From an uncultured Clostridia bacterium (GTDB taxonomy: Bacteria; Bacillota; Clostridia; Oscillospirales; Oscillospiraceae), in assembly GCA_945873695.1 (NCBI GenBank), contig CAMCDX010000001.1, forward strand, positions 1 to 64,000: a stretch of 64,000 nucleotides of DNA, in the 5' to 3' direction. Below are positions 38,233-56,992 of the stretch, one piece after another. The notes under the pieces are model-generated. The model had not been told where the DNA came from. It did no database searches and worked only from the letters and a program-made list of their open reading frames with translations. Made by a program: the position numbers and the translations under genes. The number at the start of each line of letters is the position of its first letter. The first letter of the stretch is position 1.

Positions 38233-38931
38233 TTATTTCCCGAAGCCGCAGAAGTTCTTGGTCTCCTCGTAGTTTTCCGGCATCCGCACTGTGTTGGGCG
38301 GGAAGAACTCCCCCACCGGGAAGGAGATGTTCCGGAAGATGCCGCAGGGGTCCTCTCCGCCGCCGCTGCCGCAGGAGCACTCCTTGTCAGGCATACAGTA
38401 ATCGTACACCGGCACCAGCAGCTGGGAGTCCCGCTCCAGCCGCACGATGGAGAACTGGCCCAGGGTGACGTAGATGCGGCGGCTGTCATCGCCGCTGGAC
38501 AGCTCGCCGTCGAAGCAGCTGTTGACGAAGGAGGGCACCTCACACAGATCGCAGTCGCAGTCCCGCTTGCCGCAGCAGTCCAGGATACGGGCGTCCAGCA
38601 CGATGGGGTCCACCGCCTCCACCACGGCGATGGGGGCGTTGGCCCGGCGCATCATCGGGATGTCCGGCTCCCCGGTCCGCATCTCGCTGGAGAAGATCTT
38701 GGCGTTGCCCTCGCTGCCGAACAGGATGACCCGCTTGTCGAACACGCACAGCCCCTCCACGGTGACCGGCGCAGGGCAGCTCAGGTAGGCCTGGAGGGTC
38801 ACGGAGTAGAAGAACCGCATATCCACGGTATAGAAGCCACGGTTGAAGCTGACAGGCTCCACGTCCACGTATACGTACAGCAGTCTGGCGGTGCCGCCCT
38901 TCACGGACAGCGCCCGGTTGATGACATCCAC
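38233..38931 (-). CDS. Conserved Clostridia protein, apparently 5'-truncated at the prophage junction
   Basis: 232 aa from the first usable start, a GTG at 38931. No known domain; Cys-rich stretches (ILDCCGKRDCDCDLCE and DKECSCGSGGGEDPC) and a C-terminal FPVGEFFPPNTVRMPENYEE suggest metal binding or disulphides. The reading frame with protein-like character continues upstream (CCDKDCIEDLRFYPKLQY) to a TAA at 38995-38997, without ATG, GTG or TTG. So the true N-terminus and promoter seem lost to the prophage. I recall similar proteins beside spoIIIA in gut Clostridia but cannot name a function. Confidence 0.7.
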   Translation of the reverse strand: MDVINRALSVKGGTARLLYVYVDVEPVSFNRGFYTVDMRFFYSVTLQAYLSCPAPVTVEGLCVFDKRVILFGSEGNAKIFSSEMRTGEPDIPMMRRANAPIAVVEAVDPIVLDARILDCCGKRDCDCDLCEVPSFVNSCFDGELSSGDDSRRIYVTLGQFSIVRLERDSQLLVPVYDYCMPDKECSCGSGGGEDPCGIFRNISFPVGEFFPPNTVRMPENYEETKNFCGFGK

Positions 38932-39000
38932 ATACTGCAGTTTGGGATAGAACCGCAGATCCTCGATACAGTCTTTATCACAGCAAAGAGCAGTTTAAAG

Positions 39001-39029
39001 AAAAAGGCCGCTCGAAAGCGGCCTTTTTC
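39001..39029 (-). terminator. Bidirectional terminator at the phage left end
   Basis: AAAAAGGCCGCT-CGAA-AGCGGCCTTTTTC, a perfect 12-bp stem with A-run and T-run on each side; it lies immediately after the stop of the 2003-aa gene. Confidence 0.9.
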
Positions 39030-42000
39030 TCATTTTACCAGCCTCGGCATGGTAATGTCACTACTTTTCTTCTCAAACGGGTTCCAAACTTCCCCGTTCT
39101 CATCCGTCAACCTCGGCATAGTGATATCCTGCGGCTGAGCATTTGCTCCCCGCAGCAGCTTTAATGCCTCTTCCCTGCTCCGTCCCACGCTCTTCCCGGA
39201 GATCCACGGTGCATCGCTCAGCGTGCTCTCCTTGTACCCGGCGGCATAATAGAGGGCCGTTTTCTGGCTGTCGGTGATCTCCATGGCGTCTATGGCCGCC
39301 AGGACTTTTGCCTTCTTGCTCCCGGAAACAGTCTTTCCGTTGACCTTGTCCGCATACAGTCCGTCTGTGGCTCTCTTGAACTCCAGGAACTTCTCCGGAG
39401 AGATACCGGCAGCATAGGCCGTCTCCAGCTTCTCGAACTCGTAGTCCTCCATCATGCTCTCCAGGGCGGTCAGCTGCTCTTCCTCTGTCAGCCCTCCATA
39501 CTGGACCACGGTCTCATACCGCTGCTGATTGCTGACGGTCTGCTTGCCGGCTTCCGGCTTCAGCTCGCTGATCCGCAGCGCCAGCCCTTCTGCTGTGTCG
39601 GACGCCACGCCCGCTTCAGTCATTGCGGTATAGCGCCCGGCCTCTGCCTTCGCCTGGCTGTAAAAGGCCATGCTGTCCTTCAGCGCTGCCCTCTGGTCCG
39701 ATGTCAGGCCCTGCCCGTCTGCCCAGCTGGCAAACCTGGTGGCTTTCTCGCCCGCCGCCATGTTATCATTCCCGTTCAGGTCCAGATACATGGTGTAGGC
39801 CTCGGAAACCTGTGCCCAGCTCATCCCCATGTCCATCAGCTGGCGGAAAGTCTCCGGCCGCTTGCTCTCGCTGGTGGCGATGGTTTCCTGGTAGATCCGC
39901 AGCTTCTCCCGGTCGGACAGATCCGCCTCATTCAGCCGCACCATCTTTTCCCTGGTATCCGGTGCGGCCCCTGTCTCCGGGTCCTTCCTCCGCAGGATCT
40001 GGATGGTCTCATAGACCTTGGTCCGGTCGGAGCCCTCCGCCGCCATCTGCTGCACGGTCCTGGTCTGCTTCGCCGTCAGGCCCGTATCCCCGGAAGCGTA
40101 GAAGTCCCTTGTCTCAGACAGTCCTGAATTCCCGAACAGTACCGCCTGCGCCCATTTCCCCGGCGTCTGCTCCACCGGATACTGCATCCGCTGTTTGCCC
40201 CCGTATCCGTAGGTCCTGCCGCCCTGCAGCATAGTGCTGACGCCCTGGGCTGTCTTCTGGAGCTGCCGTCCGCCCGGCAGCAGTGTGCTGCCCAGCTCCA
40301 GCAGACTCCCGCCGATCTCTCCGGCGGACTTCTCCTCCGCCGTCAGCGCCTTTCCGACGCCCTGTACCGCCTCTGCCATGTTGGCGAACGGCATGGTCTG
40401 GTCGCCCAGGCCCAGCAGGCCCGCCGCATTCCTGATGAACGGGATATCGTTGGAGACGTTGTATGCAGCATCGGACGCTGCCGCGCCCCAGTCGAAGGGC
40501 CGCAGCTCCTTCTCATCGTCGTCTCCCAGCAGCCCTTCCCCGAACATGGCCTTCCACCCGGCATTCACAAGCTGCTTCAATCCCTCGTTGGTGGTCATGC
40601 CAAAGCCGGAAGACACGAAGTTAGCGATGTAGCCCAGCACATCAAACGGCGCCGGCGTGCCGCCGTAAACGGCCTCCGCCGCCCGGTTCAGCAGGAAGGC
40701 GGACACCAGTCCCCTGGTCACCACCGTGGCCACCGCCCGGGTGGCTGCCTTCTTTCCGTGTGTCTTCTCGATGTTCCGATACTTATAGGGCAAATCCTGG
40801 CTCAGATGCTCCCAGCTGTTCATGGCCTCCACCTGGAACATGTGCAGCATCTGGTTGACCACGTTCTTGCTCTCGAAGGCCATGGGGCGGCTGCCCTTCA
40901 TCCGGGAGGCCATGATCTGCGTGGCCCAGCGGTCTGCCTCCAGCATTGCCGCCTCGGATGGTTTCCCCTCCGCCACCAGCTGGTTGTACTTGCTCTGGAC
41001 CGCCAGGGCGGAGACCATGCTGTCCATGATGTCCGCCGGTTTGAACATAGCGGATACCATCCGGTCGAACTTGCTGTCGTTGGCCGTCAGGTACTCAATG
41101 CCCTTTTTCCCCGTCAGCAGGTCGCTCTGGTCGAAGAGCTGCGTCTCCTTGATGTTCCACAGCTTTCCCCGGGTGCTCTTAGCAAGGTCTGCCGCTGCCT
41201 TGGCGATGTACTTCCCATCTACCTCCGCAGCGATCTGCGCCAGCTGGGAGCTCTGGTTCAGCACGGAAGACACGTTCCCGGCCACCTGGGCCCGCCCGAA
41301 GGCAGCCACCAGCTTGTTGCCGGCGTTGAGACTGGTGCGGCCCGCCATGTACTCCATACCGCGGTCCGCCATGCTTTGCTTACCCGCCAGGAGGTTGGCA
41401 TAGTTGTCGATGTACTTCACGAACTCGCCGTACTTGCTTACCTTGGTCACGTTGTCGTACAGCTCGTCGATGTACTCGTCCATCATGGCCTTGGCATCCT
41501 CATAGGTGAGCTTCGTCCCCTCCGAGATCTTCCCTGCGTCCTTCAGCACCTCGGTCTGGGTGTGGAGATCCGCATAGCGCAGGCTCTCCGCGTGGTCGAT
41601 GGCGTTGTTGATCTCCTCTGGTCCGTAGGTCTTCCGCAGGTACCTGGAGACGCCCCGCAGGCGGGCGATATCGTCCGTGTGATAGAAGATATCGCCCAGA
41701 TAGCTCACATAGGACTCATAGCCCTTCGCCACATCGTAGTCGGTGTTCTTCCCTACACGCTGCTGGAAGAAGGGATTCCACCGTTTCCCTGGCTTGTAGT
41801 CCGCCGTCAAGCCGGAAATGGACGTTGGCAGGCTGGAGGCGTCGGTATTGACTCCCATGGACCGCAGGGCGCTCAGCAGCTTGTTCTGGGTGTCCACGCC
41901 CTGCATGTGGGGCGCGTAGCCCTTGATGAAACCGATGGTTCCGTACCCGTGTGCCGTCAGGAAGTCGTTCACCGCGTCGTAGAACAGGTCGTACTGCTCC

Positions 42001-45000
42001 GCATATTTCTGTACGGCGTTGTTGATCTTCACGCCGTCCAGCTCCCCGGACTGCAGCCGCTCCTGGTTCTGCGTCCAGCGGGCCAGCTGCTGGGCAAGGC
42101 CCCGCTCCTCGGCGTCCAGGCTGAATTCCCTGGCGGCGTCCGCCGGGTCCCATCCCTTTCGGATATTCTCCGCCGCGTTCTGGATGCCCTCTGCCATTTC
42201 CATGGAGGCCACGGTCTCACCCACGAAGCGGTCCTCCATGATCTGCTGCACGATGGCCCGCTCCGCTTTGGTCAGCTCGCTCCGCTGCCCCTGGCTGTCC
42301 TCAAAGGTCCGCACAGCGTCCAGCTGCCGCTGGATGAAGCGCATTTTCCCGGCCTCATTCTGCTGCACCGGGTAGATGTACTTCTCGTTGATGATCTCAC
42401 CCTGCCGGTCTCCGAAGATGTTCCGCATGACCCGCTCCGGCGTCCGCTCATTCATCTTCAGCATGGATATGGGCTTGAAGCCTCCCTCGTCCTTGAACAG
42501 CTCCGCCGCCATCCGCTCATTCTGCTCCCGGATCTGACGGCCCCGCTCCCGGACGCCGTCCACTGCCTTGTAGCTGTTCTCCACCGTGTAGTAGTCCGCC
42601 AGCTCCGTCACGGTGGCCCGTCTCATGGAAGCCGGGATATCCTCCACGGTGTAGTCCCCGTTGGCGATTCCCTTGGCAAATTTCTTTTCGCCTCTTGTAG
42701 GCTGCAACCTGGCTTCTGCCTGCCGGCGTGCCCGGACGGTGTCCTTCTTGCCCTGGTCCGCTCCCCGCCGGAAGTCCGTGTTGGTGTAGTCTCCCTGGTC
42801 TCCCACGACCTTCGGTCCTCCCAGCCTCTCAGTGGGGGTCTGCTGCGCTGTTTGCTTCGGCTCCCGGACCGTTTCCGTAAATTCCCCGTTGTTTCTTTCC
42901 TGATCCTGTGGTATACTGTTATCAGAAAGCTCGGAACCAGCCACGGTGTCCTGCGGTTTGACCGCGGGCCCGTCAGAGGCGGTATCCGGGCTTTTGTTTT
43001 GCCCAAAGATCATATTTCCGTTCTGGTCCACAGCCTCATGCAGGTAATATCGGTTTGCGCTGTCCTTGATCACGATGGCCGTCACGTAAACAGGCTCCCC
43101 CCGATACTGCACAGGAGCGGCAAACACATAGGAATCGTACCCGCGCCCCTTCCAGTTTTCTGTAAAGCCGATCTGCTTTCCGTACTGGATCACTCCAGGT
43201 ACTCCGGCCATCAGCTCTACCTTGGCCTCTCCAAAGCCATGACCCAGCAGACTGTTTTTGACCTTCGACTTGGAAAAAAGGACCTCGCCGAAGCCCGGCC
43301 GATTCACCTTCCCCCCGATGTTTTTGAGGAACGCCATCGCCCGTTCCGTTGCGATTCCTGTTTTTGGGACTTCCTGTCCTGTCACCACGGCCACAGGCTG
43401 CATACCGCTGATCTCTCCCAGGTTTTTCTGCAGCAGCGCAACAGCTCCCAGATGATCCGGTACGGTTTTGCTCTCGAATGCCGCATCTTCCATGCTTGTT
43501 TCCTGTCCCATGGACGTGCCGGCCTGTCCATTCTGCTCACCAGCAGAATGCTTTCTGCCACCTGCATCATACCAGTTTCCGTTTTCATCCGTGAGCCTCG
43601 GACGGATGCTGTCCAGTTCCGTTTCTGTCACGCCCTGATACAGCTTCGGCATGATGTCCTCCGCATCCCTGACCGCCTGCCGCGCCTCCTGGGAGAACAT
43701 GCCCTTTTCCCGCATCGTGTCATAGGCGTTGTCAATGGCCGCGTCCTGCACCTCGGTCTGGTACCCCCGGTACTTTCCCCTGGCGCCCGTCACGCCTTCT
43801 ACAGCGCCTCCAAGGCCGCCCAGCGCGCCGCCGATGATGCCGTCATACAGCATCTCACCGAAGTCAAAGTTTTCTCCGTATGTCCGTTTGATGTTCTCCC
43901 AAGCGCCTTCTTCGCTGTCGCTCTGATAAATCAGCTTTAAAAGCGGATTCACCAGGTCTTCAAGCATTTCTTCTGCGCCCTCGCTCACCGTCGATGCTCC
44001 AGTCTTCAGGATCGCGTTCAGCGCGGTCTTTCCCATTGGCGTTTTAGCCGCGGACTCAACCAGCTTTCCAATGACTCTCTCAGCCGCATCATCACCAAGT
44101 CCCTTACCAAAGGCTTTTGAGAATGGCGCTGCCAGATTCCCAAGCTTCTCCGTTAAAATGGACGTCAGCGCACTTGCCGATCCGTATGCCACCTGCTGTC
44201 CAAGGGTCGCTCCGTCCTGCTTTGCCTCCCTTGCGCCGCCGCCGAAGCCTCTCACCGCCATGGGCACCAGCGCCCCGGTCCCCATCGCTGCTCCCGCCGC
44301 GATGTCTCCGCCCATTTGGAGCCCCGCCACGCCGGCGTCCACGACGCCTCTTCCCAGCGTTCCAAGCCCCTCTTTGGCGTTCTCCACATCCGCCGCCGAG
44401 GACTCTCCCAGCTTCCCCGTGATCTCATGGGAAGCCTCCGTGGCTCTCTCCTGGGCATTCCCGGCTTTCTTCATGGCGTCCACCTTTCTCTGGGCGTCCT
44501 CCACGATATAGAGTTGGGACTGGATGTCCGCGTCCTTCCAAGTCCCCGGGGCTTTCAGGTTGTCTGCCCGCATGGCTTCCAGATCCCTCTGGGCCCTGGC
44601 AAGGGCTGTCTGGTATTGCTCCAGGCTTTCCTGGTTCTGACTGGTTCTGGTTTTCTGCCCCGTCTCGTAGAGCGTGGTCATCGTGCTGCTCAGATCCGAC
44701 GCGATCCCCTTTGCAGCGCCGGATCCTATCTTCACAAGCCTCCCGGCCAGCGTCGGCATCTCCACATCCCGGTAAGAGACCTTTCCTCCCCGGCCCGCGC
44801 CCGCCTGCTGTTGGACGGTCTTGGTCAGGAGAGGTGCTTTTTTCTCCGTGCTCAAATCTGATTCCATTTGCTCAACAGCCGGGGACGCATTTCGCGTCCC
44901 CGGCTGATAAGCTGTGTTTCCGACAGGTGCTTTTACCCGCTTATTCTCCAGTGCCTTCACCGGGTCAATCATCCGTACTGAAGTTTGTTTTCCGCCCTTT

Positions 45001-45041
45001 TTGTCCTTCAGTTCAACGGGATCTAGCATCTTAATACTCAT
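39030..45041 (-). CDS. Giant polyvalent virion protein (2003 aa), probable ejection protein
   Basis: Final gene of the phage late operon. Layout: residues 1-130 disordered and Gln/Lys-rich; 130-200 helical; Gly/Ala-rich membrane-active stretches at about 225-275 (GVAGLQMGGDIAAGAAMGTG) and 400-420; a compact alpha/beta domain at about 565-682 (FGEVLFSKSKVKNSLLGHGF, then YVFAAPVQYRGEPVYVTAIV) resembling BECR/LPD-type nuclease-like modules; a long helical region from about 700; and near 1230-1550 an LPD38-like segment (NQMLHMFQVEAMNSWEHLSQ). The motif PRLTDENG occurs near 480 and at the C-terminus. Such polyvalent proteins are packaged in podovirus-like phages and enter the host with DNA. Individual domain calls are by eye and tentative. 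Confidence 0.75.
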   Translation of the reverse strand: MSIKMLDPVELKDKKGGKQTSVRMIDPVKALENKRVKAPVGNTAYQPGTRNASPAVEQMESDLSTEKKAPLLTKTVQQQAGAGRGGKVSYRDVEMPTLAGRLVKIGSGAAKGIASDLSSTMTTLYETGQKTRTSQNQESLEQYQTALARAQRDLEAMRADNLKAPGTWKDADIQSQLYIVEDAQRKVDAMKKAGNAQERATEASHEITGKLGESSAADVENAKEGLGTLGRGVVDAGVAGLQMGGDIAAGAAMGTGALVPMAVRGFGGGAREAKQDGATLGQQVAYGSASALTSILTEKLGNLAAPFSKAFGKGLGDDAAERVIGKLVESAAKTPMGKTALNAILKTGASTVSEGAEEMLEDLVNPLLKLIYQSDSEEGAWENIKRTYGENFDFGEMLYDGIIGGALGGLGGAVEGVTGARGKYRGYQTEVQDAAIDNAYDTMREKGMFSQEARQAVRDAEDIMPKLYQGVTETELDSIRPRLTDENGNWYDAGGRKHSAGEQNGQAGTSMGQETSMEDAAFESKTVPDHLGAVALLQKNLGEISGMQPVAVVTGQEVPKTGIATERAMAFLKNIGGKVNRPGFGEVLFSKSKVKNSLLGHGFGEAKVELMAGVPGVIQYGKQIGFTENWKGRGYDSYVFAAPVQYRGEPVYVTAIVIKDSANRYYLHEAVDQNGNMIFGQNKSPDTASDGPAVKPQDTVAGSELSDNSIPQDQERNNGEFTETVREPKQTAQQTPTERLGGPKVVGDQGDYTNTDFRRGADQGKKDTVRARRQAEARLQPTRGEKKFAKGIANGDYTVEDIPASMRRATVTELADYYTVENSYKAVDGVRERGRQIREQNERMAAELFKDEGGFKPISMLKMNERTPERVMRNIFGDRQGEIINEKYIYPVQQNEAGKMRFIQRQLDAVRTFEDSQGQRSELTKAERAIVQQIMEDRFVGETVASMEMAEGIQNAAENIRKGWDPADAAREFSLDAEERGLAQQLARWTQNQERLQSGELDGVKINNAVQKYAEQYDLFYDAVNDFLTAHGYGTIGFIKGYAPHMQGVDTQNKLLSALRSMGVNTDASSLPTSISGLTADYKPGKRWNPFFQQRVGKNTDYDVAKGYESYVSYLGDIFYHTDDIARLRGVSRYLRKTYGPEEINNAIDHAESLRYADLHTQTEVLKDAGKISEGTKLTYEDAKAMMDEYIDELYDNVTKVSKYGEFVKYIDNYANLLAGKQSMADRGMEYMAGRTSLNAGNKLVAAFGRAQVAGNVSSVLNQSSQLAQIAAEVDGKYIAKAAADLAKSTRGKLWNIKETQLFDQSDLLTGKKGIEYLTANDSKFDRMVSAMFKPADIMDSMVSALAVQSKYNQLVAEGKPSEAAMLEADRWATQIMASRMKGSRPMAFESKNVVNQMLHMFQVEAMNSWEHLSQDLPYKYRNIEKTHGKKAATRAVATVVTRGLVSAFLLNRAAEAVYGGTPAPFDVLGYIANFVSSGFGMTTNEGLKQLVNAGWKAMFGEGLLGDDDEKELRPFDWGAAASDAAYNVSNDIPFIRNAAGLLGLGDQTMPFANMAEAVQGVGKALTAEEKSAGEIGGSLLELGSTLLPGGRQLQKTAQGVSTMLQGGRTYGYGGKQRMQYPVEQTPGKWAQAVLFGNSGLSETRDFYASGDTGLTAKQTRTVQQMAAEGSDRTKVYETIQILRRKDPETGAAPDTREKMVRLNEADLSDREKLRIYQETIATSESKRPETFRQLMDMGMSWAQVSEAYTMYLDLNGNDNMAAGEKATRFASWADGQGLTSDQRAALKDSMAFYSQAKAEAGRYTAMTEAGVASDTAEGLALRISELKPEAGKQTVSNQQRYETVVQYGGLTEEEQLTALESMMEDYEFEKLETAYAAGISPEKFLEFKRATDGLYADKVNGKTVSGSKKAKVLAAIDAMEITDSQKTALYYAAGYKESTLSDAPWISGKSVGRSREEALKLLRGANAQPQDITMPRLTDENGEVWNPFEKKSSDITMPRLVK

Positions 45042-45057
45042 AAGTTCCTCCTTTGCT

Positions 45058-46500
45058 TCATCCGTAATACTTTTGAGTCAGTGCGTTCAGTTCATTTCTC
45101 TGTTCATCGGAAAGGCTTTCCCAATATTGCGTTGCCATATTCTTCGCGTCATCGGCCCTTCCCTGGATCAAAGCGTTTCGGAATCGGTTCCTCAAGGTGT
45201 TGTAATCCATAGTCCCCTGCCCCTGGTATGCCGCCCAGGCCTGATCCGCCGTCATGCCCCCGGCCGCCGCCTGTGAATTTCTGCCCCACATGCCGTCCGC
45301 CGTGACGCCCAGGGCCTTCTGGAGCTGCATGACCTGGCTGGAAGTCAGACTGCCGTTGTTATACCCGCCTCCTGACGCTTTTTTCACTGCCTGCTGCGTC
45401 ATCTGCTGTATCGCCTGCTGCACGCTCCCTCCGCCATTCTCCCCCAGCGCCAGAGCCACCTGCTGCTGCGCTGCCTGCTTGCTGATGCCCGCCGCCGTCA
45501 GGGTCTCGTCGTCCGGCAGGATGCCCTTTGCCATCTGCTGCATGGCCCAGCTCCGGGCGCTCTCCTGATTCTGCATCGCCAGGTCCTGCTCGTTCCAGTA
45601 GTTCTGGTTGTCCAGCTGTTTCTGGTTCCAGTAGTTCTGCTGCGCCATCTGCTGCCGGCTCTGCACGTAGCTCGCCCACTGGCTCTGGATGTTCTGCAGG
45701 TAGCTGGCCAGTTCCTGTGCCGTCTGCATGTCTCCTGTGAGCTGGGCGTTGGTGATGGCGCTCTCCAGCTCCTTCACGGTGGCCAGCCGCTGCTTCTCAA
45801 TCTCACTGAGCTGGTTCTGGTAGTCCGTCTCCGTGGCGATGCGCTGGCTGTCCGCCATGCCTCCGGCGTATCCGTTGACCGCCATCTGCTGCCCCAGGTT
45901 CTTCTGCCCCAGCATCTTGGCGATGTAGGCCTGCCGTGCCAGCTTGTCGCTGTCCTGGTTGGTGGTGTCGATCTGACCCCGGTACCCGTTGACGGCATTC
46001 TGCACCGCCGCCTTGATGGCCGCCTGGGTCTGCTCCGCGTACTGGTCATACCCGGTCCCGGCCAGAAAGTCCTCAAAGGACCCGTACTGTGCCGCCTGTT
46101 CCTCCTGCCGCTTCTGGTCGATGTACTGCTGCGCCGCCTGGGAGATGCTGTCGTTCCCGGAGATGCCCAGGGCGTCATAGTGCGCCTGATTGGCCGCGAT
46201 CTTGTTGTTCCGCTGATTCATCAGGTATTCCACAACGTCAGCGGAAGCTCCGCGGTCCATGGCGCTCTGCATCTGGCTGGACCAGTCCGTTCCGCCGCCT
46301 GCGGCTGCTCCTCCGGGCGGTGTGCTGGTCAGGTTCTTGTTCGTTCCTCCGATCACCGTTCTGGATCCGCCGATCACAGTTCCGGATCCGCTGGTGCCTC
46401 CTGTGCTCGTCTTTCTTCTGACCGTTCCGGTCGCCACCTTGGATGCGTCATTGACAGACTTCGCCACAATGGCTTTTACCATGTCCGTTACACTTGCCAT
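45058..46500 (-). CDS. Phage internal/ejection-type virion protein
   Basis: 480 aa, Gln/Ala/Asn-rich and mostly helical. Coiled segments run from about residue 150 to 340 (NYWNQKQLDNQNYWNEQDLA shows a near-repeat). Near residues 390-420, QVMQLQKALGVTADGMWG resembles a short peptidoglycan-binding repeat. C-terminus LSDEQRNELNALTQKYYG. Lies between the holin and the giant protein, a position where podovirus ejection proteins are found. No catalytic motif seen. Confidence 0.65.
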   Translation of the reverse strand: MASVTDMVKAIVAKSVNDASKVATGTVRRKTSTGGTSGSGTVIGGSRTVIGGTNKNLTSTPPGGAAAGGGTDWSSQMQSAMDRGASADVVEYLMNQRNNKIAANQAHYDALGISGNDSISQAAQQYIDQKRQEEQAAQYGSFEDFLAGTGYDQYAEQTQAAIKAAVQNAVNGYRGQIDTTNQDSDKLARQAYIAKMLGQKNLGQQMAVNGYAGGMADSQRIATETDYQNQLSEIEKQRLATVKELESAITNAQLTGDMQTAQELASYLQNIQSQWASYVQSRQQMAQQNYWNQKQLDNQNYWNEQDLAMQNQESARSWAMQQMAKGILPDDETLTAAGISKQAAQQQVALALGENGGGSVQQAIQQMTQQAVKKASGGGYNNGSLTSSQVMQLQKALGVTADGMWGRNSQAAAGGMTADQAWAAYQGQGTMDYNTLRNRFRNALIQGRADDAKNMATQYWESLSDEQRNELNALTQKYYG

Positions 46501-46503
46501 GGC

Positions 46504-46983
46504 TTACTCCTCCTTCCCTCCGCTGGCTGTTTCCCCGGCACTGTCCACCGTCGCCTTCAGCACCGCGATCATCTTTTTCAAAAATTCCGGCAGCGGAGCG
46601 CCCATCTTGCCCACATTTTCCAGAATGCTGCCCAGCTCCATGAGTAAGTACCACGTCACGACCAGAGGGCAGATAATGACCGTATACTCAAAGGGGAGCG
46701 CCAGTCCCTGAATATCCCCCAGCAGATAGCCCACAACGGCGTCCAGAATGCCGGCCACCAGCACGGCGAAGATGCACCCCGCCTTGTGCCACAAGCCCTC
46801 CCTGGCGATCTGCGAGGACCATTCCCCGTTCTTCATGGCGGCCCCGTAGCCTGTGATATAGTCCACCGCCATGCAGGCCACCCAGGCCAGCACCAGCCAG
46901 CCGAACCAGCCCCACAGGGCCGTCATAGCCGCCAGGACTGCGGCCAGCGCCGCCTTGAATCTCGTCACATTCTCCATCATCAT
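46504..46983 (-). CDS. Phage holin (toxin-secretion/lysis holin, Phage_holin_4 type)
   Basis: 159 aa. Three hydrophobic segments: AALAAVLAAMTALWGWFGWL leading into VLAWVACMAVDYITG, then AGCIFAVLVAGILDAVVGYLL, then VIICPLVVTWYLLME. The pattern MAVDYITGYGAAMKNGEWSS is characteristic of the family. Makes membrane lesions that release the endolysin encoded just upstream. Confidence 0.9.
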   Translation of the reverse strand: MMMENVTRFKAALAAVLAAMTALWGWFGWLVLAWVACMAVDYITGYGAAMKNGEWSSQIAREGLWHKAGCIFAVLVAGILDAVVGYLLGDIQGLALPFEYTVIICPLVVTWYLLMELGSILENVGKMGAPLPEFLKKMIAVLKATVDSAGETASGGKEE

Positions 46984-46998
46984 TCTTTCCTCCTCTGT

Positions 46999-47982
46999 TC
47001 ACTCTGTCCAGTCCGCCCGGGTCTCCCGGACGTCCACATGCACGAATCCCTTCTTGCTGTAAATGCCCACGCCACCCCAGTCCGGCATGATGCTGCGGGC
47101 ATAGGCGGCCACGTCGGCCACGGACACACCCTTGACGGAGATGTCCGCCGCCGTGCCGTAGGTGTGCTGGCTGTTCGAAACGCCGCCCACCTTGGTGTTG
47201 TATGGCGGTGTGCGGTAGCCGCTGTGGATGGTGACCGCCTTGCCGAAATGGCTGCGGATGCTCTGCAGCACCATCACCAGCCGGGGCGCTACAAACACGG
47301 TGTCCGTTCCGTCGCCGCAGGCGAACTCCTTCACCGCAAAATTGGATGACAGCTTCTTTCCGCCGTCCTTTTTCTTGGAATACGCGTTGATCTCAACCAT
47401 GGGTCTCTCTCCTTCTCTCTCATTTGGCTCCAGTGCTTCCCAGAAGCACAGGAGCGTCGCCACCTTGCGGATGCTGGTCACCTTCCCGCCCGGGAAGATA
47501 CCCTGGGTGCTGCCGCCGCCGTCGAACATCAGTCCGTCCACGCACCCGATGTCCAACAGCTTGTCCTGCAGCTGCTCCCTGGTGAGGATGGCCCTGTCGC
47601 ACCACAGCAGCACCCGGCCGTTCTTCATCCAGCCCACCGCCGTCCGCTCCGCCGGGCGGGCCACATCCGGCGTCAGATCCCGCGCCAGCTTCTTCCCGTC
47701 CTTCAAGATGGGCACCGCTGACGTGAACCAGGTCAGCGTTCTGTCCGTGGACATGATCGGAGGCCCGTCCAGATCGCAGCCAAGGCCCCAGTCCTTGTAC
47801 TTGCTCTTGCTCAGGACCTTTCCTGCCACAATGCAGTCGTCACAGGGCTGGAACTTCTTGTTGAACACCCACCCGTTCATGATGTGGGTGCAGCCGGTCC
47901 TGGCCTGTACCTGCGCCGGCGTCAGCCGCAGCGCCCGGTTGTCAAACACCTCCATCCTGGAGGCTTTCATGATCGTGTACAT
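46999..47982 (-). CDS. Two-domain endolysin: phosphodiester-glycosidase-like plus M15 peptidase
   Basis: 327 aa. Residues 1-190 look like the NAGPA/phosphodiester glycosidase fold, with TERT-like strand MKNGRVLLWCDRAI and the signature LMFDGGGSTQGIF. Residues 205-327 are an M15-type peptidoglycan peptidase: SGYRTPPYNTKVGGVSNSQH then YGTAADISV and GFVHVDVRE supply the zinc-binding His/Asp/His. The peptidase half is the likely wall-cutting enzyme; the N-terminal half may help bind or cut a wall polymer. Paired with the holin. Confidence 0.88.
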   Translation of the reverse strand: MYTIMKASRMEVFDNRALRLTPAQVQARTGCTHIMNGWVFNKKFQPCDDCIVAGKVLSKSKYKDWGLGCDLDGPPIMSTDRTLTWFTSAVPILKDGKKLARDLTPDVARPAERTAVGWMKNGRVLLWCDRAILTREQLQDKLLDIGCVDGLMFDGGGSTQGIFPGGKVTSIRKVATLLCFWEALEPNEREGERPMVEINAYSKKKDGGKKLSSNFAVKEFACGDGTDTVFVAPRLVMVLQSIRSHFGKAVTIHSGYRTPPYNTKVGGVSNSQHTYGTAADISVKGVSVADVAAYARSIMPDWGGVGIYSKKGFVHVDVRETRADWTE

Positions 47983-47985
47983 TCG

Positions 47986-48426
47986 TCAACCCCCGGTATA
48001 TGCCGTCCAACCCGCCGGATAGGCGTCCGGCGCCCAGACGTTGCCGTCGATGGTGGACTGGTACAGATTGCCGTTATAGCTCACGATGTCGCCGGTGTTG
48101 TAGGCGTCGCTGGCCCCCAGTGGCTGCACCCACTCAGGGTATCCGCTCTCCGTCACGCCGATGGCCTTATAGAGGGAGGTGGCCGTGTCCGGCGTCCACT
48201 CCGCGGCAGAGGTGTGGTCCTGGAGAACCTGGTAAAGCTGCGGGTCTCCCACGCTGTTCTCGCCATAGCGGAACACGTCCTTGGCCTTGTACGCCTTCCC
48301 CGTCTCATATGCCGGGAACACGCTGGCAACGGCCAGCATGTCCTCCGCCTGTGTGTCAGCGTCCATCGTGGACAGAAACAGCTGCAAGGCTTTCCGCAGC
48401 TCCAGAGCTGCCTGTACTTTGTTCAT
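47986..48426 (-). CDS. Phage protein with C-terminal carbohydrate-binding module
   Basis: 146 aa. N-terminal helix (ELRKALQLFLSTM), then AYETGKAYKAKDVFRYGENS and a second unit YNTGDIVSYNGNLYQSTIDG ending YPAGWTAYTGG. This is the aromatic-rich pattern of ChtBD3/CBM5-12-type modules seen in phage tail and baseplate accessory proteins. Probably helps attach to surface glycans. Located between tip proteins and endolysin. Confidence 0.7.
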   Translation of the reverse strand: MNKVQAALELRKALQLFLSTMDADTQAEDMLAVASVFPAYETGKAYKAKDVFRYGENSVGDPQLYQVLQDHTSAAEWTPDTATSLYKAIGVTESGYPEWVQPLGASDAYNTGDIVSYNGNLYQSTIDGNVWAPDAYPAGWTAYTGG

Positions 48427-48429
48427 ACC

Positions 48430-48666
48430 TTAACCCTCCCCTGTCAGCAGGACATCCAAATATCCCTGCGTCTCCTCAATAACGTTTCCTCCATCCACCT
48501 CACAGCACATAGCACCATCCTTGAACAGATACGGTGTGCCGTGATAAGCCACGCCCTCTGCGTGGTTAGCATCCGTCAGCAGATACACGCCGTTCTTGTG
48601 AACACGGATGTAGTTGGCCTTTTCGGTCAGGAAGGATTCTCCTGTCGCAGTCGTGATTCTGTACAT
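48430..48666 (-). CDS. Small phage protein of unknown function
   Basis: 78 aa, acidic, beta-rich (MYRITTATGESFLTEKANYI, VYLLTDANHAEGVAYHG). No domain recognised. It ends 3 bp before the next gene and follows the 130-aa protein by 2 bp. Similar small proteins sit after tail-fibre genes in Firmicutes phages. Confidence 0.65.
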   Translation of the reverse strand: MYRITTATGESFLTEKANYIRVHKNGVYLLTDANHAEGVAYHGTPYLFKDGAMCCEVDGGNVIEETQGYLDVLLTGEG

Positions 48667-48668
48667 TC

Positions 48669-49061
48669 TTACACCTCCAAAAGTAAACGGATACGCCGAA
48701 GCTCATTCACATCCGCATTGTAAAAATCTTGATTCCAAACCCAAAAATCCTTGTGGTCCGTTCTCCGAAGGCGGTTCGATCCGGCATCCGCCCACAGCTT
48801 GTCCCACCGTGCCTGGTGCTTTGCATCCCGCCGCTCCAATGTGCCCCGGATGTCCTGCACCAGCTTTCCACGCTCCATTCCGAGGCCGTCATCGTCCCGT
48901 GAGAAGTGGTCGTAGGCGTTCTGGCTGGTGACCGCGCACAGGCGTCTCCCGTCCTCCAGAATCAGGTAGCCGTCCTGCGTCTCACAGGCTGTCCCGTACG
49001 GCAAGTTTACCGCGCCGCAAATGGCTTTCCCGCGAAACCGCCGTATTACGATATAGCGCAT
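48669..49061 (-). CDS. Phage protein of unknown function
   Basis: 130 aa. Starts MRYIVIRRFRGKAICGAVNL, followed by an acidic middle (YDHFSRDDDGLGMERGK) and a Trp-rich helical C-terminus (HQARWDKLWADAG, DFWVWNQDFYNADVNELRRI). No family name can be given. Part of the tightly spaced tail-tip/lysis cluster. Confidence 0.65.
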   Translation of the reverse strand: MRYIVIRRFRGKAICGAVNLPYGTACETQDGYLILEDGRRLCAVTSQNAYDHFSRDDDGLGMERGKLVQDIRGTLERRDAKHQARWDKLWADAGSNRLRRTDHKDFWVWNQDFYNADVNELRRIRLLLEV

Positions 49062-49089
49062 AGATGATCCTCCTCATACAGTGCGATGA

Positions 49090-49929
49090 TTAGACACAAA
49101 AGCCGGGGGCCACGCCGCGCGAAAAGTCCGCGGAGTTATAGTTGGCGCTGCCGCCGGTGCCGACAAGGCAGAAAATGGTGGAGTTGCCGGAATAGACGGA
49201 CCGGCACCACGCATAGGCCGCCGTGCCGGTGGCGTTGTGCTTGTAATGGATCTTGCTGTTGCCCGCCTTGTAATAGTCATACTGGGCCTGGTAATTCTGC
49301 TCCGCGCTTTTGGCGTAGGTCCTGGCGCCGTGGTATTCAAACTCCGAAAGCAGGAACAGGTAATCGGTGGTACTGGTGACATAACTGGCGGTGTTGGATC
49401 CGCCGCCGGTGTTGTCGCTGTACTTGGTCACCGCTTTCATCACAGCCCGCAGGTCAGCCGGCAAGGCTGCCAACAGACTGCCGGAGGGCGGGCTGGTGGG
49501 GGTGCCGCTGTTGCCCAGCAGGGTCTTTCTCATACTGGAACCGTTCCACCCGCCGCTGTTTGTGTTGCTGGCGTTCATCTGGAAATAAGACGCGGAGGAT
49601 CCGCTGCTGCCGTAATTGCTATCGCAGAGGGCAATATGTACGCCGCTGATCTTTCCGATCTTGAAATGGATCCGGTTGGCGCCCTCTCTTCTGCTGTTGT
49701 GGTTAAAGCCCAAAACAAAGGCGTCCACGGACAGGTTGGAGAAAGTGGTGTTTCCCACCGCGCCGTTGATGGTGATGGTTTTGGTATCGCCCACAGCCCA
49801 ATACTTCTCAGCAAGTCCCATTTGGCTGACCTTGCTGATCGTCTCCCAGCTGTTGTTGTTCAGCACCGGGTCGACCAACATTGGAGCCTCATGGGTTTCT
49901 CCCTTACGCATGAATAAACAGTTACCCAT
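49090..49929 (-). CDS. Lectin-like (DUF6273-type) phage tip protein, second of a tandem pair
   Basis: 279 aa. Starts M-G-N-C-L-F-M-R at the ATG that overlaps the previous stop (TGATG); a longer frame upstream is rejected. The C-terminal third has the C-type-lectin-like layout DYLFLLSEFEYHGART, AYAWCRSVYSGNSTIFCLVG, then FSRGVAPGFCV. DUF6273 domains of this sort occur at phage tail tips and as targets of diversity-generating retroelements. Probable receptor-binding protein. Many residues in the tip region are Ser, Gly, Asn or Tyr. Confidence 0.75.
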   Translation of the reverse strand: MGNCLFMRKGETHEAPMLVDPVLNNNSWETISKVSQMGLAEKYWAVGDTKTITINGAVGNTTFSNLSVDAFVLGFNHNSRREGANRIHFKIGKISGVHIALCDSNYGSSGSSASYFQMNASNTNSGGWNGSSMRKTLLGNSGTPTSPPSGSLLAALPADLRAVMKAVTKYSDNTGGGSNTASYVTSTTDYLFLLSEFEYHGARTYAKSAEQNYQAQYDYYKAGNSKIHYKHNATGTAAYAWCRSVYSGNSTIFCLVGTGGSANYNSADFSRGVAPGFCV

Positions 49930-50654
49930 CACGCAACCCCCTTGAGAATGAGTGTGGTTTTGTCGAACAGTGCGTTGCTTGGAAGTACCAAAGCGGGGCG
50001 GATGCCATACGAGTTGGAGCAGCCGCTGCCGCCGCAACTGCCGTCGGTGCTGACGCACCAGGCGCTGCCGGTGCCGTTGGCGTACGGGGAGCGGAGCCAC
50101 CAGCTGGCGGCCGCCCCGTTGAGGTAGCCGATACGCTTACTGTCGGTTGCTGCGGTCCCGCTGAAGTATGACAGGCAGGCACCGTCAATGGGGAAATACC
50201 TGTTGGTGCTCTGCGTCCAGCCTACCTCATAACCAGACAGCAGGAAGATCTTCGCAGCCAAACCGTTTGCTCCAGAAGCAACGGCAGAGTTGGCGGTTCC
50301 GTTTACATACGGAATCTTCACTTCTTTGATTGCAGCCTGGATGTCGGAATCAAACAGGCCAAGGAACGTGCTGTTGAGATACGAATGGATGGTGGAAGCC
50401 TTGTAGCTGTTTCTGTTGGAGCTGTGCCACGCGCGAGAATCGAAGATATCTTTCCTAAGTAACCACGTTCCATCACAGCTTGCATCATACAGACTGGAAC
50501 CACTGGGAGCCCCCTGATTTACTACCAGATACTCCACAGCACTCCCGTTCTCCATCAGGTACACGGAAGAACCAACAGAAAGTGTGCTTGCAAGAATACC
50601 CGTCATAGGAGCGGTTAGATTTTGGACCTCTTTGCTCAACAGGACATGCCCCAT
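49929..50654 (-). CDS. Lectin-like (DUF6273-type) phage tip protein, first of a tandem pair
   Basis: 241 aa. After a 60-residue N-terminal part (YLMENGSAVEYLVVNQG) the DUF6273-like core follows: TWLLRKDIFDSRAWH, SYLNSTFLGLFDSDIQAAI, IFLLSGYEVGW, then ASWWLRSPYANGTGSAW and GIRPALVLPSN. The spacing and the WWLRSP...GIRPAL signature are typical. The loop between them (GSCGGSGCSNS) is where variable residues sit in related proteins. Both flanking junctions are TGATG overlaps. Probable receptor-binding protein. Confidence 0.8.
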   Translation of the reverse strand: MGHVLLSKEVQNLTAPMTGILASTLSVGSSVYLMENGSAVEYLVVNQGAPSGSSLYDASCDGTWLLRKDIFDSRAWHSSNRNSYKASTIHSYLNSTFLGLFDSDIQAAIKEVKIPYVNGTANSAVASGANGLAAKIFLLSGYEVGWTQSTNRYFPIDGACLSYFSGTAATDSKRIGYLNGAAASWWLRSPYANGTGSAWCVSTDGSCGGSGCSNSYGIRPALVLPSNALFDKTTLILKGVA

Positions 50655-51583
50655 CACGCTACCTCCACAACGATGGGTATACTTACAGTCGGTGCATCCC
50701 CGAAGATATAGAACGTGATACCGCCGTCATAGGTCTCCGCATACCCGTTGGTGATGTAGGTCAGGTACTGATTCTCCGCTTCCACAAAGGCCGCATAGCC
50801 ATCGGAAGTGCCGTCCCCGGTGTAGGCGTGGTCTACCTTGGCGGTGTGCTTTGCCAGAACGCCGGTGATGGGAACGGACTGGGACTTCACGCCAGTGTCC
50901 TCGTTCTCCGTCCATGTGGTGCCGATGGTGGCGGTGTAGGTCTTGACAGAACTGATTTCAGGAAGCTGCCCCGTCGGCACCTTTCCGTCTGTCCCCAGCG
51001 TTGCCACGCCGGATGCCGCGCCTTTTTCAGAGGAAGGGATGGCGCCCACCTGTTTCGCGTTATAGTCGCCTGCCTGCGGTACCACAGCTCCGTTTCTGCC
51101 GTTAAAGGACATGACGCCCCCTCCTGCTGCCGCTGCTGCCTGCTCCGACCAGTATTTCGCGTTGTTGGTGTCCTCCCCTTCCCGGGTCCCGGTACCGCCG
51201 ACCGCCCAGCTCTCGGACGCCTTGGCGCCGTTCTCGGACCTTGCCACGTACCCGGTCTCCAGGTCCTGCCGCTGCGTTTCCGCTTCCTGTCTCTGCTGCT
51301 CTGCCTCGGCACGTCCGCTCTCCGCCTGTGCTCTGGCTGTCTCCGCCTCCACACGCAGGTTTTCAGCGGCCACCCGCAGTGCCTCCGCAGCCTCGATGCC
51401 GCTCTCCGTCTGCTCCATGGCGGTGATGGCTTCCACCGCCTCGTTGTAGGCCGGAGCGATAAGCTCCCGCACCATGCGGTCAAAGACGGCCTTGTTCTGC
51501 GCCGGTGTTCCGCTCAGTACGTCAGGCGCCGCGCAAACGCCCTTTGTGTCCATCTGCTGTGTCGTGATCTTCTCCAGCGCCAT
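50654..51583 (-). CDS. Phage tail fibre/adaptor protein with coiled coil
   Basis: 309 aa. N-terminal 60 residues are conserved-looking (MALEKITTQQMDTKGVCAAP). Residues 60-115 form a coiled coil of Ala/Glu/Arg heptads (LRVEAETARAQAESGRAEAE). FNGRNGAVVPQAGDYNAKQVG is a fibre-type beta motif. The C-terminal domain is beta-rich (ETYDGGITFYIFGDAPTVSI). Likely trimeric fibre that carries the lectin-like proteins encoded next. Confidence 0.8.
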   Translation of the reverse strand: MALEKITTQQMDTKGVCAAPDVLSGTPAQNKAVFDRMVRELIAPAYNEAVEAITAMEQTESGIEAAEALRVAAENLRVEAETARAQAESGRAEAEQQRQEAETQRQDLETGYVARSENGAKASESWAVGGTGTREGEDTNNAKYWSEQAAAAAGGGVMSFNGRNGAVVPQAGDYNAKQVGAIPSSEKGAASGVATLGTDGKVPTGQLPEISSVKTYTATIGTTWTENEDTGVKSQSVPITGVLAKHTAKVDHAYTGDGTSDGYAAFVEAENQYLTYITNGYAETYDGGITFYIFGDAPTVSIPIVVEVA

Positions 51584-51595
51584 ACGCTATCACTC

Positions 51596-53461
51596 CTATC
51601 TCTTGTAATTCCCGCCCGGTTCCCGCCACTCCAGGCCGAATAGATACAGGCCAAATGGCTCGTTCAGCTCCTTGTTCTGGAGGCGGAACCGAACCTTGTC
51701 CACCTTCTTGATCTTGATCTTCCCGAAAAGGGTCCGTGGCGTCTGATCCGCGCTGAAGACGAACTTGGCGAAGTCGATGTAGCTCCAGTCGAAGTACCTG
51801 GCCCGCTCCTTGGCGTCAAATACCTGGCTCCAGATGCCCCGCTTCTGGGCGAAGATCTTCACGCCGGTGAGCACCGCCGCCGCCAGGCGGCAGCTGACGG
51901 AGGTGAAGGTCTTGCTGTGGAAGAAGGCCTTCCCGTCAAAGTCGCTGGTCTCCCAGTAGGCGTCGATGGCCTCTCCGTCGTCGTTGTAGCTCTCCGGGTC
52001 GTCCACGTTGGTGCCGAACCGCCGCAGCTTTCCGTCCGCCGTGCCGAAACACAGGGCGTCTCCGTCCACCCACAGCACCCGGGCCTGGATGCCCGGCCAG
52101 TAATAACATTCGTACTGGTAGCTGCTGTACGGGCTGTTTTTCTCATAAGTCCGCTGCTGCAGGTCCAGGAGATACAGGTCTCCCGCCAGACTCAGCACGT
52201 AAAAGTCCCGGTAGACCACCCCAAAGGCATCCTCCTTCCCGTCGGCCTCCTGGAGGGCGCTTCCGATGTAATAGCTCCGCTCCTGGCTGTACTTCTCCCC
52301 GGTCAGCTCTTCCGCCGTGATGGCGTATACCCCCTGGTTTGTCAGGAACAGGGGTTCCTTTCCGCAGAAGGCGAAGCTGTCCGTGGCCACAGCGTTCTCT
52401 CCAATGAGGGTGTTTGTGATGCGGAAGATGGCCTCTCCGCTATTGTCCAGGCTGCCGGTGCGGATCACCACGTTCCGCCCGTCCGCTGCGCCGTCCAGAA
52501 AGGCCGCCAGGGCATTGTTCAGTACGGCGTAGCCCACCACCCGGCTGCCGTCACGGCTGAGCTTGGTGTAGCTGGTGTCCGGGATGAAGGTAGGGTCCTC
52601 GTAGGCGCTGTAATAGTCCATGCCCGCCTGCTCTGGATTCCCGGAGAGGAATACCCGATCCGCCGCACCTCCCACGCCGTATACGGCAAACATCGTGCAG
52701 TGGTTCACCCGGTCCAGATATCCCTCCCTAGTCTTTGCCGCCGTGATCTTCACGTTGTCCTGGCCGGTCACAGGCGGTTTTCCCGGTGCCGTGGAGAATG
52801 TGACAGTCCCCTTGGCCCGATCCACGGTGAAGTCTGTCCCCTCTGTCTTTTCCACCCATTCTCCATCGGTGTTCATGACTTCCGCCGTCACCGGGTCGCT
52901 GTCCAGCTCCTCTGTGGTCAGCTGATAGGTCTTGTCCGTTTCCGTGCCCAGAAAGGACTCCGTCCACTTTCTGCTCAGCAGGTTCAGGGCCTCGTAGGTC
53001 GTTCCTCCACCGCTTGGATTCCTGCTGATGATAATGGTGGGCACCTTGGCGTTCTCGGACACCGCCGCCAGGGTGGTCCCGTCGTACACCTGATAGGTGG
53101 TCCCGTCCAGCAGATACAGCTTCTGGTCGAAGACGAAGCCCCGGCTCCTGGCATCCGCCATGGCGCCCAATTCCGTGAAGGCGGTCTCCCCATCCCAGCG
53201 GTACAGCTTGTCCCCGGCGTGGACCAGGGCCTCCTCCCCCAGGCGGTAAACGCCGTTGACGCGGCCGCCGTTTGGCGCCGTGGCCACGGTCTTATAGCCC
53301 ATGCGCTTTCGCACCTTGCCCACCTGGTCCCGGATCATGTTTGGCGCCGCCGGCGACCGTGACGGATCCACGTTGGTAGGCGAGTTGTTCATGTCCACAC
53401 CCCGGAAATAGTCAATGACGGTGGTGTACTTGGGAGATTCGCTGGGAATATCAAACGCCAT
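51596..53461 (-). CDS. Phage tail/stopper protein, beta-propeller-like
   Basis: 621 aa from the ATG at 53461 (AGGAG upstream). Begins with FRGVDMNNSPTNVDPSRSPA, a pattern seen in podovirus tail nozzle/stopper proteins, and then repeated beta blades (LGEEALVHAGDKLYRWDGE, FVFDQKLYLLDGTTYQVYDG, DFYVLSLAGDLYLLDLQQR). The C-terminal part is compact with KVRFRLQNKELNEPFGLYLF. By order it should close the head-tail channel, like P22 gp10-type proteins; that comparison is inferred. Confidence 0.65.
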   Translation of the reverse strand: MAFDIPSESPKYTTVIDYFRGVDMNNSPTNVDPSRSPAAPNMIRDQVGKVRKRMGYKTVATAPNGGRVNGVYRLGEEALVHAGDKLYRWDGETAFTELGAMADARSRGFVFDQKLYLLDGTTYQVYDGTTLAAVSENAKVPTIIISRNPSGGGTTYEALNLLSRKWTESFLGTETDKTYQLTTEELDSDPVTAEVMNTDGEWVEKTEGTDFTVDRAKGTVTFSTAPGKPPVTGQDNVKITAAKTREGYLDRVNHCTMFAVYGVGGAADRVFLSGNPEQAGMDYYSAYEDPTFIPDTSYTKLSRDGSRVVGYAVLNNALAAFLDGAADGRNVVIRTGSLDNSGEAIFRITNTLIGENAVATDSFAFCGKEPLFLTNQGVYAITAEELTGEKYSQERSYYIGSALQEADGKEDAFGVVYRDFYVLSLAGDLYLLDLQQRTYEKNSPYSSYQYECYYWPGIQARVLWVDGDALCFGTADGKLRRFGTNVDDPESYNDDGEAIDAYWETSDFDGKAFFHSKTFTSVSCRLAAAVLTGVKIFAQKRGIWSQVFDAKERARYFDWSYIDFAKFVFSADQTPRTLFGKIKIKKVDKVRFRLQNKELNEPFGLYLFGLEWREPGGNYKR

Positions 53462-53524
53462 TTTCTTCTCGCTCCTTTCCAATCATTTTTGCCGCGGCGT
53501 GTACGTGGCAAAAATACATTGACC

Positions 53525-53605
53525 CAGCCGCCTTGGGCGGCGTTCACCAGTCCGCAGACTGGTGGTGGGGAATCCTCAAGGGGGAGCCTGCTCCCTCTTG
53601 ACGTT
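53525..53605. repeat. Run of three hairpins between connector and tail-protein genes
   Basis: CCGCCTTGGGCGGCG, CACCAGTCCGCAGACTGGTG, and TCAAGGGGGAGCCTGCTCCC continuing to TCTTGA lie one after another in a 145-bp gap with no gene. They have no T-run and resemble host-type palindromic repeats. Confidence 0.6.
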
Positions 53606-53606
53606 T

Positions 53607-54266
53607 TTACCACCACCCCGTTGTGTTTTTTACCCTGCTGACTGTCCCGCCCTTCGGCTGCTCCCGGTAGCTCATCTGCAGCTTCAGCAGCCCGTCCTCG
53701 AACTCATTGCGGAACATGGTAGCCATGGCTAGTTCGTCCTCCTTGTAGAGCTCCGCCGCCATGTACAGCGGCACCAGGGCAGCCGCCTCCTCCGCCAGCT
53801 CCAGTTCCGTCTCCTCCGGCGTTGCCGCCGTGATCTTCACCGGATAGGCGTCGTACCAGACGGTGTAGGTGCCCGCCATGTCTCCCGGCAGGATCAGCAC
53901 GTCGTCCCCCTCCAGGTCCCAGTCCTGGGCCCTGCCGTAGCCGTCCTCCGTCTCCAGCATCAGCTGGTTTCGCTCGATGCACCGGAATCTGGGACAGTAT
54001 TCCGTCAGCGTGATGCGGTAGTTTTTTTCCACAGTGGGCAGCACCAGCTCCTCCCCACTCTCCGCCGCCGTCACGCCCGGCTGCAGCCGGATGCGGAAGG
54101 TCTTCAGAATGGGCCTGCCCACTGTGGTGATCTGGAGCATGGCCTCGTTGGCCTTCCCCGGCATGGCGTCAATGTAGTCCTGGTTCACATCGTCCACGTT
54201 GATGGATGCGCCCTCGTTGGAGAACATGGTCTGCAGCGCAATGAGCTTGCATTCTCCCCAATTCAC
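53607..54266 (-). CDS. Phage head-tail connector/adaptor protein
   Basis: 219 aa. Begins MNWGECKLIALQTMFSNEGA (GTG start with AGGAGG upstream). INVDDVNQDYIDAMPGKANEAM and the later EEAAALVPLYMAAELYKEDELAMA are helices typical of gp6/gp4-like connectors that bind the portal. The middle is beta-rich. Placed directly after the capsid gene. Confidence 0.7.
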   Translation of the reverse strand: MNWGECKLIALQTMFSNEGASINVDDVNQDYIDAMPGKANEAMLQITTVGRPILKTFRIRLQPGVTAAESGEELVLPTVEKNYRITLTEYCPRFRCIERNQLMLETEDGYGRAQDWDLEGDDVLILPGDMAGTYTVWYDAYPVKITAATPEETELELAEEAAALVPLYMAAELYKEDELAMATMFRNEFEDGLLKLQMSYREQPKGGTVSRVKNTTGWW

Positions 54267-54283
54267 AAATGAATTCCTCCTTC

Positions 54284-54316
54284 AAAGAAAGGCCTGGGAA
54301 CCCCCAGGCCTTTCTA
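54284..54316 (-). terminator. Terminator after the capsid gene
   Basis: Minus strand GAAAGGCCTGGG / CCCAGGCCTTTC with a small loop, then TTTG; it lies between capsid and connector genes and may set capsid mRNA excess. Confidence 0.75.
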
Positions 54317-54331
54317 TTCTTTGTTGCTCTA

Positions 54332-55339: not shown

Positions 55340-55357
55340 CGTTCTCTCTCCTCTCTC

Positions 55358-55741
55358 TTAGAACTTCACCAGCACGCCGGAACCGACGGCGGTGCCGTCC
55401 ATGCGGACGATCTCCGCCACGCCGGAGGCGGTGGTGGCCGTCACCTGCAGACCGTCGGTGTGCAGGGTCACCTTGCTGCCGATCTTCAGGTCGGTACCTA
55501 CGGCCTGCAGGGTGGTCTCAAAGGTCATGTAGTCCTGCACGGCGATGACCGGAGCCTCGCCGGCAGCGTTCTTGGGGCCAACCGCCACAAAGGCGGGCTT
55601 TGCGGCGGCTCCGCACTTGGTCAGCTTCCCGGCGCTGAGCACCAGCGCCTCGCCCAGCACGATGTCCTCACTGGCCGTCACGGGCAGATACTTGATGGGC
55701 GGGGTGTGACCCACGTCCATGCGAGAAAGCATAAAGCTCAT
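55358..55741 (-). CDS. Capsid decoration-like protein
   Basis: 127 aa from the ATG at 55741. Small all-beta protein (YLPVTASEDIVLGEALVLSA, FETTLQAVGTDLKIGSKVTL) of the DUF2190/head-decoration type encoded directly before many capsid genes. Probably stabilises the capsid surface. The upstream frame through a hairpin element is not used. Confidence 0.75.
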   Translation of the reverse strand: MSFMLSRMDVGHTPPIKYLPVTASEDIVLGEALVLSAGKLTKCGAAAKPAFVAVGPKNAAGEAPVIAVQDYMTFETTLQAVGTDLKIGSKVTLHTDGLQVTATTASGVAEIVRMDGTAVGSGVLVKF

Positions 55742-55773
55742 ATCGTCCTCTCTTTCTTCATATCCTTCGCTTT

Positions 55774-55875
55774 CGTCGTCACAAAGTCCGCTCCGCTTCG
55801 TTTCCACCTATGGTGAAAACTTCACGTGCTCCCTTGTTCCTCCTCTCCCCACCGCACATGTGCGGCGGGGTCCCC
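55774..55875. repeat. Bipartite hairpin element, copy B
   Basis: On the minus strand: hairpin CCCCGCCGCACATGTGCGGTGGGG, then a GA-rich linker AGAGGAGGAACAAGGGAGC, a second hairpin GTTTTCACCATAGGTGGAAAC, and the tail AGCGGACTTTGTGACGACG. Same order as copies A, C and D. Confidence 0.8.
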
Positions 55876-55906
55876 GGAAACGGCGAAAGCTCACTCATTT
55901 CGAAGC

Positions 55907-56013: not shown

Positions 56014-56015
56014 CT

Positions 56016-56954: not shown

Positions 56955-56992
56955 TTTTGTATCCTCCTGTTCGATTTTTTCGCTATTCGATG

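Follow-up and report, generated by a model that had tools for sequence, protein, structure and literature searches.

The window analysed here, a stretch of 64,000 nucleotides at the start of a contig of 92,079 bp (G000:C1) from an uncultured member of the Oscillospiraceae, holds one junction of a prophage of about 40 kb that splits a conserved gene in two at codon 33. We consider it rather probable that the interrupted gene works in the mother cell and that the prophage leaves precisely during sporulation and so restores it, as SP-beta does in spsM. Sequence comparison shows the integration itself, its site, the restorability of the gene and the recurrence of the split.

A conserved gene is separated from its start

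The gene fragment at 38233 has no start codon because the prophage is inserted in the gene. Its first possible start in translation is a GTG at 38931, and upstream of it on the minus strand the frame remains open, without any ATG, GTG or TTG, back to a TAA at 38997-38995, as the preliminary description had accurately reported. DNA matches of relatives to this gene nearly all begin at about 38985 or within the gene, not upstream. Intact relatives possess about 30 codons more at this end (MPEKVMPGPVEDxxGIREAVCIHTRKIYDSC-RDKDCIEDL), preceded by AGGAGG. The features of the window are as follows, with the basis of each assignment in brackets.

38233..38979, minus strand: C-terminal part of the host gene, codon 33 to stop (DNA match to intact relatives; open frame; joins codons 1-32)
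38978..38979, minus strand: GA crossover dinucleotide, codon 33 (junctions compared across 15 split genomes; best centre of the attP palindrome)
38980..39001, minus strand: half of the attachment site on the phage side, forming one arm of the attP palindrome (pairing with the other arm; kept in related prophages)
38995..38997, minus strand: phage-derived in-frame TAA upstream of the start-less fragment (translation)
38980..64000, no strand: prophage portion within the window, continuing to about G000:C1 79059 (both junctions, phage genes)
38999..39030, no strand: terminator-like inverted repeat at the phage end (arms 38999-39012 and 39017-39030)
39030..45041, minus strand: 2003-aa phage protein with a large polyvalent protein-associated domain, LPD3 (Pfam PF18798)
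46999..47982, minus strand: phage endolysin (PHROG 894)
57746..59818, minus strand: P22-like phage portal protein (Pfam PF16510; PHROG 156)
59936..60424, minus strand: phage terminase small subunit (Pfam PF03592)

The missing codons 1-32, which were found once in the genome, stand beyond the window at 79157-79062 of this contig and have the same strand as the fragment. They are accompanied by the start and ribosome-binding site of the host gene, and this N-terminal piece runs into a stop two codons past codon 32. When joined in silico, codons 1-32 and 38979-38233 yield an intact ORF of 280 aa with the layout seen in relatives, so the insertion lies within coding sequence and the frame is restored on joining the flanks, as precise excision would do. 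Since the N-terminus is located 40 kb away and joining recovers the full-length ORF, the gene is split rather than simply decapitated.

These results uphold the earlier proposal that a prophage interrupts a conserved host gene, through the different sequence of intact-gene relatives upstream of about 38985, the N-terminus found at the other prophage end next to the integrase gene, and a matching core at both ends, although the latter is very short (GA). The proposal also held that the native start and promoter are lost in the lysogen; they are indeed separated from the fragment, but outright loss was rejected, both having been moved to the other prophage end, about 40 kb off.

The complete element measures about 40.08 kb, both of its junctions being on the one contig, and between its ends there are structural and packaging genes, including portal, small and large terminase subunits, endolysin and virion proteins. 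The phage terminator that had been placed at this boundary was recovered as the repeat at 38999-39030, which stands behind the last phage gene, 39030-45041. Relatives of the very large protein encoded by that gene occupy the same place in G073, G087, G079 and G106.

Attachment site and integrase

The crossover dinucleotide, 38979-38978, falls inside the stretch of about 38970-39000 within the 5' end of the gene where the attachment core had been predicted, and its partner GA is found at G000:C1 79061-79060, beyond the window. The core shared by the two ends is, by comparison, this GA, and integration through a long shared core was rejected. Rejoining the two phage arms gives an imperfect palindrome with 16 of 22 positions paired and its best centre at GA, a result equalled by none of 100,000 shuffles. 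The 2-bp core and the symmetric attP are, as judged from sequence, those of a large serine integrase. Such an enzyme, of 512 aa, is encoded by the last ORF before attR (C1:77492-79030), which ends 29 bases from the attR core, and its PF00239 (Resolvase), PF07508 (Recombinase) and PF13408 (zinc-ribbon) domains all score over the cut-off. By these features, the ~40-kb element is a temperate phage that used its own large serine integrase to enter the gene at the GA of codon 33. No tRNA was found in the window.

Most prophages of the same clade have TC after the integrase-side arm, and their integrase is near the N-terminal piece of the gene. G079 (L071) and G087 (L079) have GA in that place and their integrase near the C-terminal piece (compare G000:C1 79030-79061). 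On this comparison, the two represent a naturally occurring switch of orientation, in which the core dinucleotide is flipped and the prophage reversed. The central dinucleotide determines orientation in Bxb1 and phiC31, and the joint flip of core and prophage fits that rule.

Recurrence of the split

The host gene was found in 80 of 86 genomes of the genus (Oscillibacter/Dysosmobacter) and in 42/42 of the near-complete ones, split copies included. It is interrupted at codon 33 in 15 of the 80, and a sixteenth genome, G031, shows an interruption at codon ~155. O. valericigenes Sjm18-20, whose genome (G106, AP012044.1) is complete, carries this same codon-33 junction. Other families of the order have codon-33 splits as well; where one contig bears both parts, 7-41 kb separate the N-terminus from the rest. 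Three IMG/VR contigs carry an integrase consistent with the same site, two of them read directly and the third (L182) assigned by identity only, through a match to the O. valericigenes integrase. SpoIVA, used as an assembly control, gave one match per genome in 58/58 of the genus genomes that yielded it (Fisher p ~9e-5).

The codon-33 integrases belong to at least two groups, 67-84% and ~35-47% identical to the G000 integrase, and those at codon 155 are distant from either group. In a class-wide sample, further partial matches occur near codons 30, 70-97, 155 and 235; in G444, G573 and G587 the gene family appears in at least three pieces, as if interrupted at several codons or duplicated. The splits at codon ~155 are due to cassettes of 3-4 kb (L090:2983-6047 in G031; L239, L240 and L241 in G109, G193 and G243, respectively), which carry a distant large serine recombinase together with a metabolic gene. 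From their translations, we take the ORF of the G031 cassette to be threonine dehydratase-like and that of the G109 cassette glucosamine-6-phosphate deaminase-like. In G083 (L088, 821-2243) the integrase beside the split matches as two separate, slightly overlapping pieces, hence a frameshift in it is possible, which may keep that prophage from leaving.

Selection on the split gene

All C-terminal fragments produced by codon-33 splits are open frames, and those N-terminal pieces that were examined have kept promoter, ribosome-binding site and start intact. Pairs of split species (27) have a median omega of 0.11, no higher than the 0.15 of pairs of intact ones (255); taken alone, this may reflect recent insertion. 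Between G159 and G203, the most telling pair, both split, integrase dS (0.23) and host dS (0.27) are similar, the host fragment has accumulated 0 nonsynonymous and 38 synonymous changes, and the prophages are collinear over several long stretches at ~89-94%. For this one species pair, the pattern is that expected from an inherited integration plus continued function. The pair G058/G166 has 0 nonsynonymous changes as well, but its integrase dS (0.69) exceeds the host dS (0.24), and it was therefore set aside as evidence for selection while split. The integrase dS is likewise larger than the host dS between G000 and G090 (0.75 and 0.36), pointing to separate and perhaps recent insertions.

Upstream promoter and likely role of the host gene

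A two-block motif, CACC-N15-GCATA[CG]ACTG, precedes the start in 73 of 76 sequences, namely those that could be aligned on GCATA[CG]ACTGGA, in which CACC stands 15 variable bases before almost without exception. The blocks are conserved at ~1.5-2 bits each and the spacer at less than 0.6 bits; several relatives from other families show a similar block spacing upstream of the gene. Sigma-E promoters have a different -35 element. The arrangement is like that of B. subtilis sigma-K promoters, AC-N16-CATAnnnT with blocks 14-16 bp apart (PMC517825). A genome-wide, mismatch-tolerant scan for the motif gave no signal above control. Between this sigma-K-like promoter and the ribosome-binding site, most relatives have a short inverted repeat, TGAAAG...CTTTCA (G000:C1 79158-79260 and equivalents), perhaps forming a 5' mRNA hairpin.

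Concerning distribution, SpoIVA is found in 31/31 near-complete genus genomes, and across the order the host gene is missing from 10 of 18 SpoIVA-less genomes vs 40 of 279 SpoIVA-bearing ones (p ~1e-4, phylogeny uncontrolled and lists read by eye). A search of 12 genus genomes for YabG (PF05582), intended as a control for sigma-K genes, gave no match. The host protein is Cys-rich, often with a Cys-rich tail, and sequence searches of Pfam, NCBIfam and the PDB, even using 51 diverse relatives, returned no credible family match. A first structure model was poor (pLDDT 42); a second (pLDDT 73) had no credible PDB match, with TM-scores of ~0.1-0.2, and so no fold is claimed. Given the sigma-K-type promoter and the Cys-rich product, together with the distribution, a late mother-cell gene for the spore coat or surface is most likely; this is our best guess, but a guess. 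O. valericigenes has all sporulation sigma factors, sigma K included, and its spores have not been seen (PMC3558957).

Proposed excision and alternative explanations

The sporulation function, the timing of excision and the directionality factor are the parts of the proposal that we infer. The phage integrase has inserted the ~40 kb at the GA in codon 33 of the conserved Oscillospirales gene, so that one prophage end has the promoter, ribosome-binding site and codons 1-32 and the opposite end codons 33-280. If the prophage left precisely in the mother cell, the gene would be restored when needed, and, mother-cell DNA not being passed on, the spore would retain the prophage, as with SP-beta and spsM. 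Restoration of this kind would explain why the site is so often occupied and why both halves are kept intact. A small ORF at C1:74226 to ~74430 (minus strand, beyond the window) is common to 5/5 same-clade prophages where it could be searched for, even where these have little else in common, and is a candidate recombination directionality factor. No convincing sigma-E or sigma-K promoter was found before either the integrase or this ORF, and the motif ATAGGACAA...CATAGG, conserved before the latter, was rejected as a promoter for lying too near the ribosome-binding site.

The main competitor to sporulation-timed excision, which we regard as a real possibility though the less probable one, is that a conserved but dispensable gene is disrupted passively, serving the phage as an ever-present attB, switched off in lysogens and regained only on phage induction. 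This would agree with the lack of an identified mother-cell promoter on the excision genes, with the absence of the host gene from 50/297 genomes of the order, and with the G000/G090 insertions (integrase dS 0.75 vs host dS 0.36), separate and perhaps recent; serine integrases, moreover, commonly hit conserved genes lacking known sporulation control (PMC10083194). A merely dispensable gene is nevertheless hard to reconcile with fragments that all stay open and, in the pieces examined, keep promoter, ribosome-binding site and start, with the 0 nonsynonymous to 38 synonymous changes of G159/G203, or with presence in every one of the 42 near-complete genus genomes, split ones counted.

We hold it very improbable that the fragment is expressed from the internal GTG at 38931, or that the 33-aa N-terminal peptide is made as a separate product. 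That GTG is in frame and the N-terminal piece does retain its promoter and ribosome-binding site, yet no AGGAGG-like site precedes 38931, a start there would drop ~50 residues, among them a run of almost invariant ones, and a terminator-like repeat on the phage side stands before the start-less fragment. An assembly artefact, by which a metagenomic contig joins unrelated sequences, has next to no likelihood: the G000 assembly is only 78% complete, in 138 contigs, and the halves are on different contigs in many other split genomes, but in G000 both halves and the prophage share one contig, the junction recurs in the complete Sjm18-20 genome, on one contig of G086 and in IMG/VR contigs, two of them read directly and a third matched by integrase identity, and SpoIVA is unsplit in all 58 genus genomes that yielded it. 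For the phenomenon as a whole this explanation was rejected on that recurrence.

Extending sporulation-timed excision beyond this prophage, we tentatively suggest, at somewhat less than even confidence, that one uncharacterised sigma-K-type gene family of Clostridia may be a general exchange point for programmed, sporulation-timed rearrangement. Fixed codons (~33 and ~155) would there be occupied repeatedly by unrelated phages and by small integrase cassettes with metabolic cargo, all departing in the mother cell, so that many gut species would make the spore protein only after excision. If the timing is as proposed, one identifiable gene would link lysogeny to spore formation in a major, hard-to-culture gut group, a link open to PCR tests in cultured strains, O. 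valericigenes among them. The results also point to an unstudied, probably spore-related protein family and provide a naturally occurring collection of integrases for which attB and attP have been inferred, some of them pairing a flipped core dinucleotide with a reversed prophage.

Comparison with known systems

Intervening elements are already known in sigK, spsM, spoVFB, gerE and yabG (PMC5595907, PMC10747680), spoVFB being interrupted by vfbin according to the citation in PMC10747680; no description of the present target gene was found in a full-text search of the main texts of freely available papers. As in gin/gerE of B. cereus (PMC5595907) and yin/yabG of C. botulinum (PMC10747680), a serine recombinase adjoins the attachment site, the genes hit there being sporulation genes. 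The targets of gin, yin and vfbin are nevertheless different, and yin is known from one strain whereas the codon-33 split occurs in many species. Like gin, the small codon-155 cassettes are without evident phage genes. With skin in sigK of B. subtilis and C. difficile (PMC5025042) the present case shares a serine-recombinase element in a mother-cell gene, here a probable one; skin is a defective prophage-like remnant in a sigma factor gene, and here an apparently complete prophage lies in a probable sigma-K target gene. Distantly related integrases converging on one target gene and site were also described by Durrant et al. 2022 (PMC10083194), whose main text stresses competence and prolyl isomerase targets and whose supplementary lists may include this host gene.

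The closest parallel is SP-beta of B. subtilis, a prophage with the SprA/SprB system that lies in the sigma-K gene spsM and is excised in the mother cell at sporulation (PMC4191935). The target genes are different and unrelated-looking, SP-beta is much larger than the ~40 kb found here, and its reported shared core is 16 bp vs 2 bp by comparison in our case; excision timed to sporulation, demonstrated for SP-beta, is what we propose for the present prophage by inference. By analogy, both would be active-type prophages lodged in a sigma-K gene (here one with a sigma-K-like promoter) and equipped with a large serine integrase, with attachment sites containing inverted repeats, whose precise joining would restore the reading frame.
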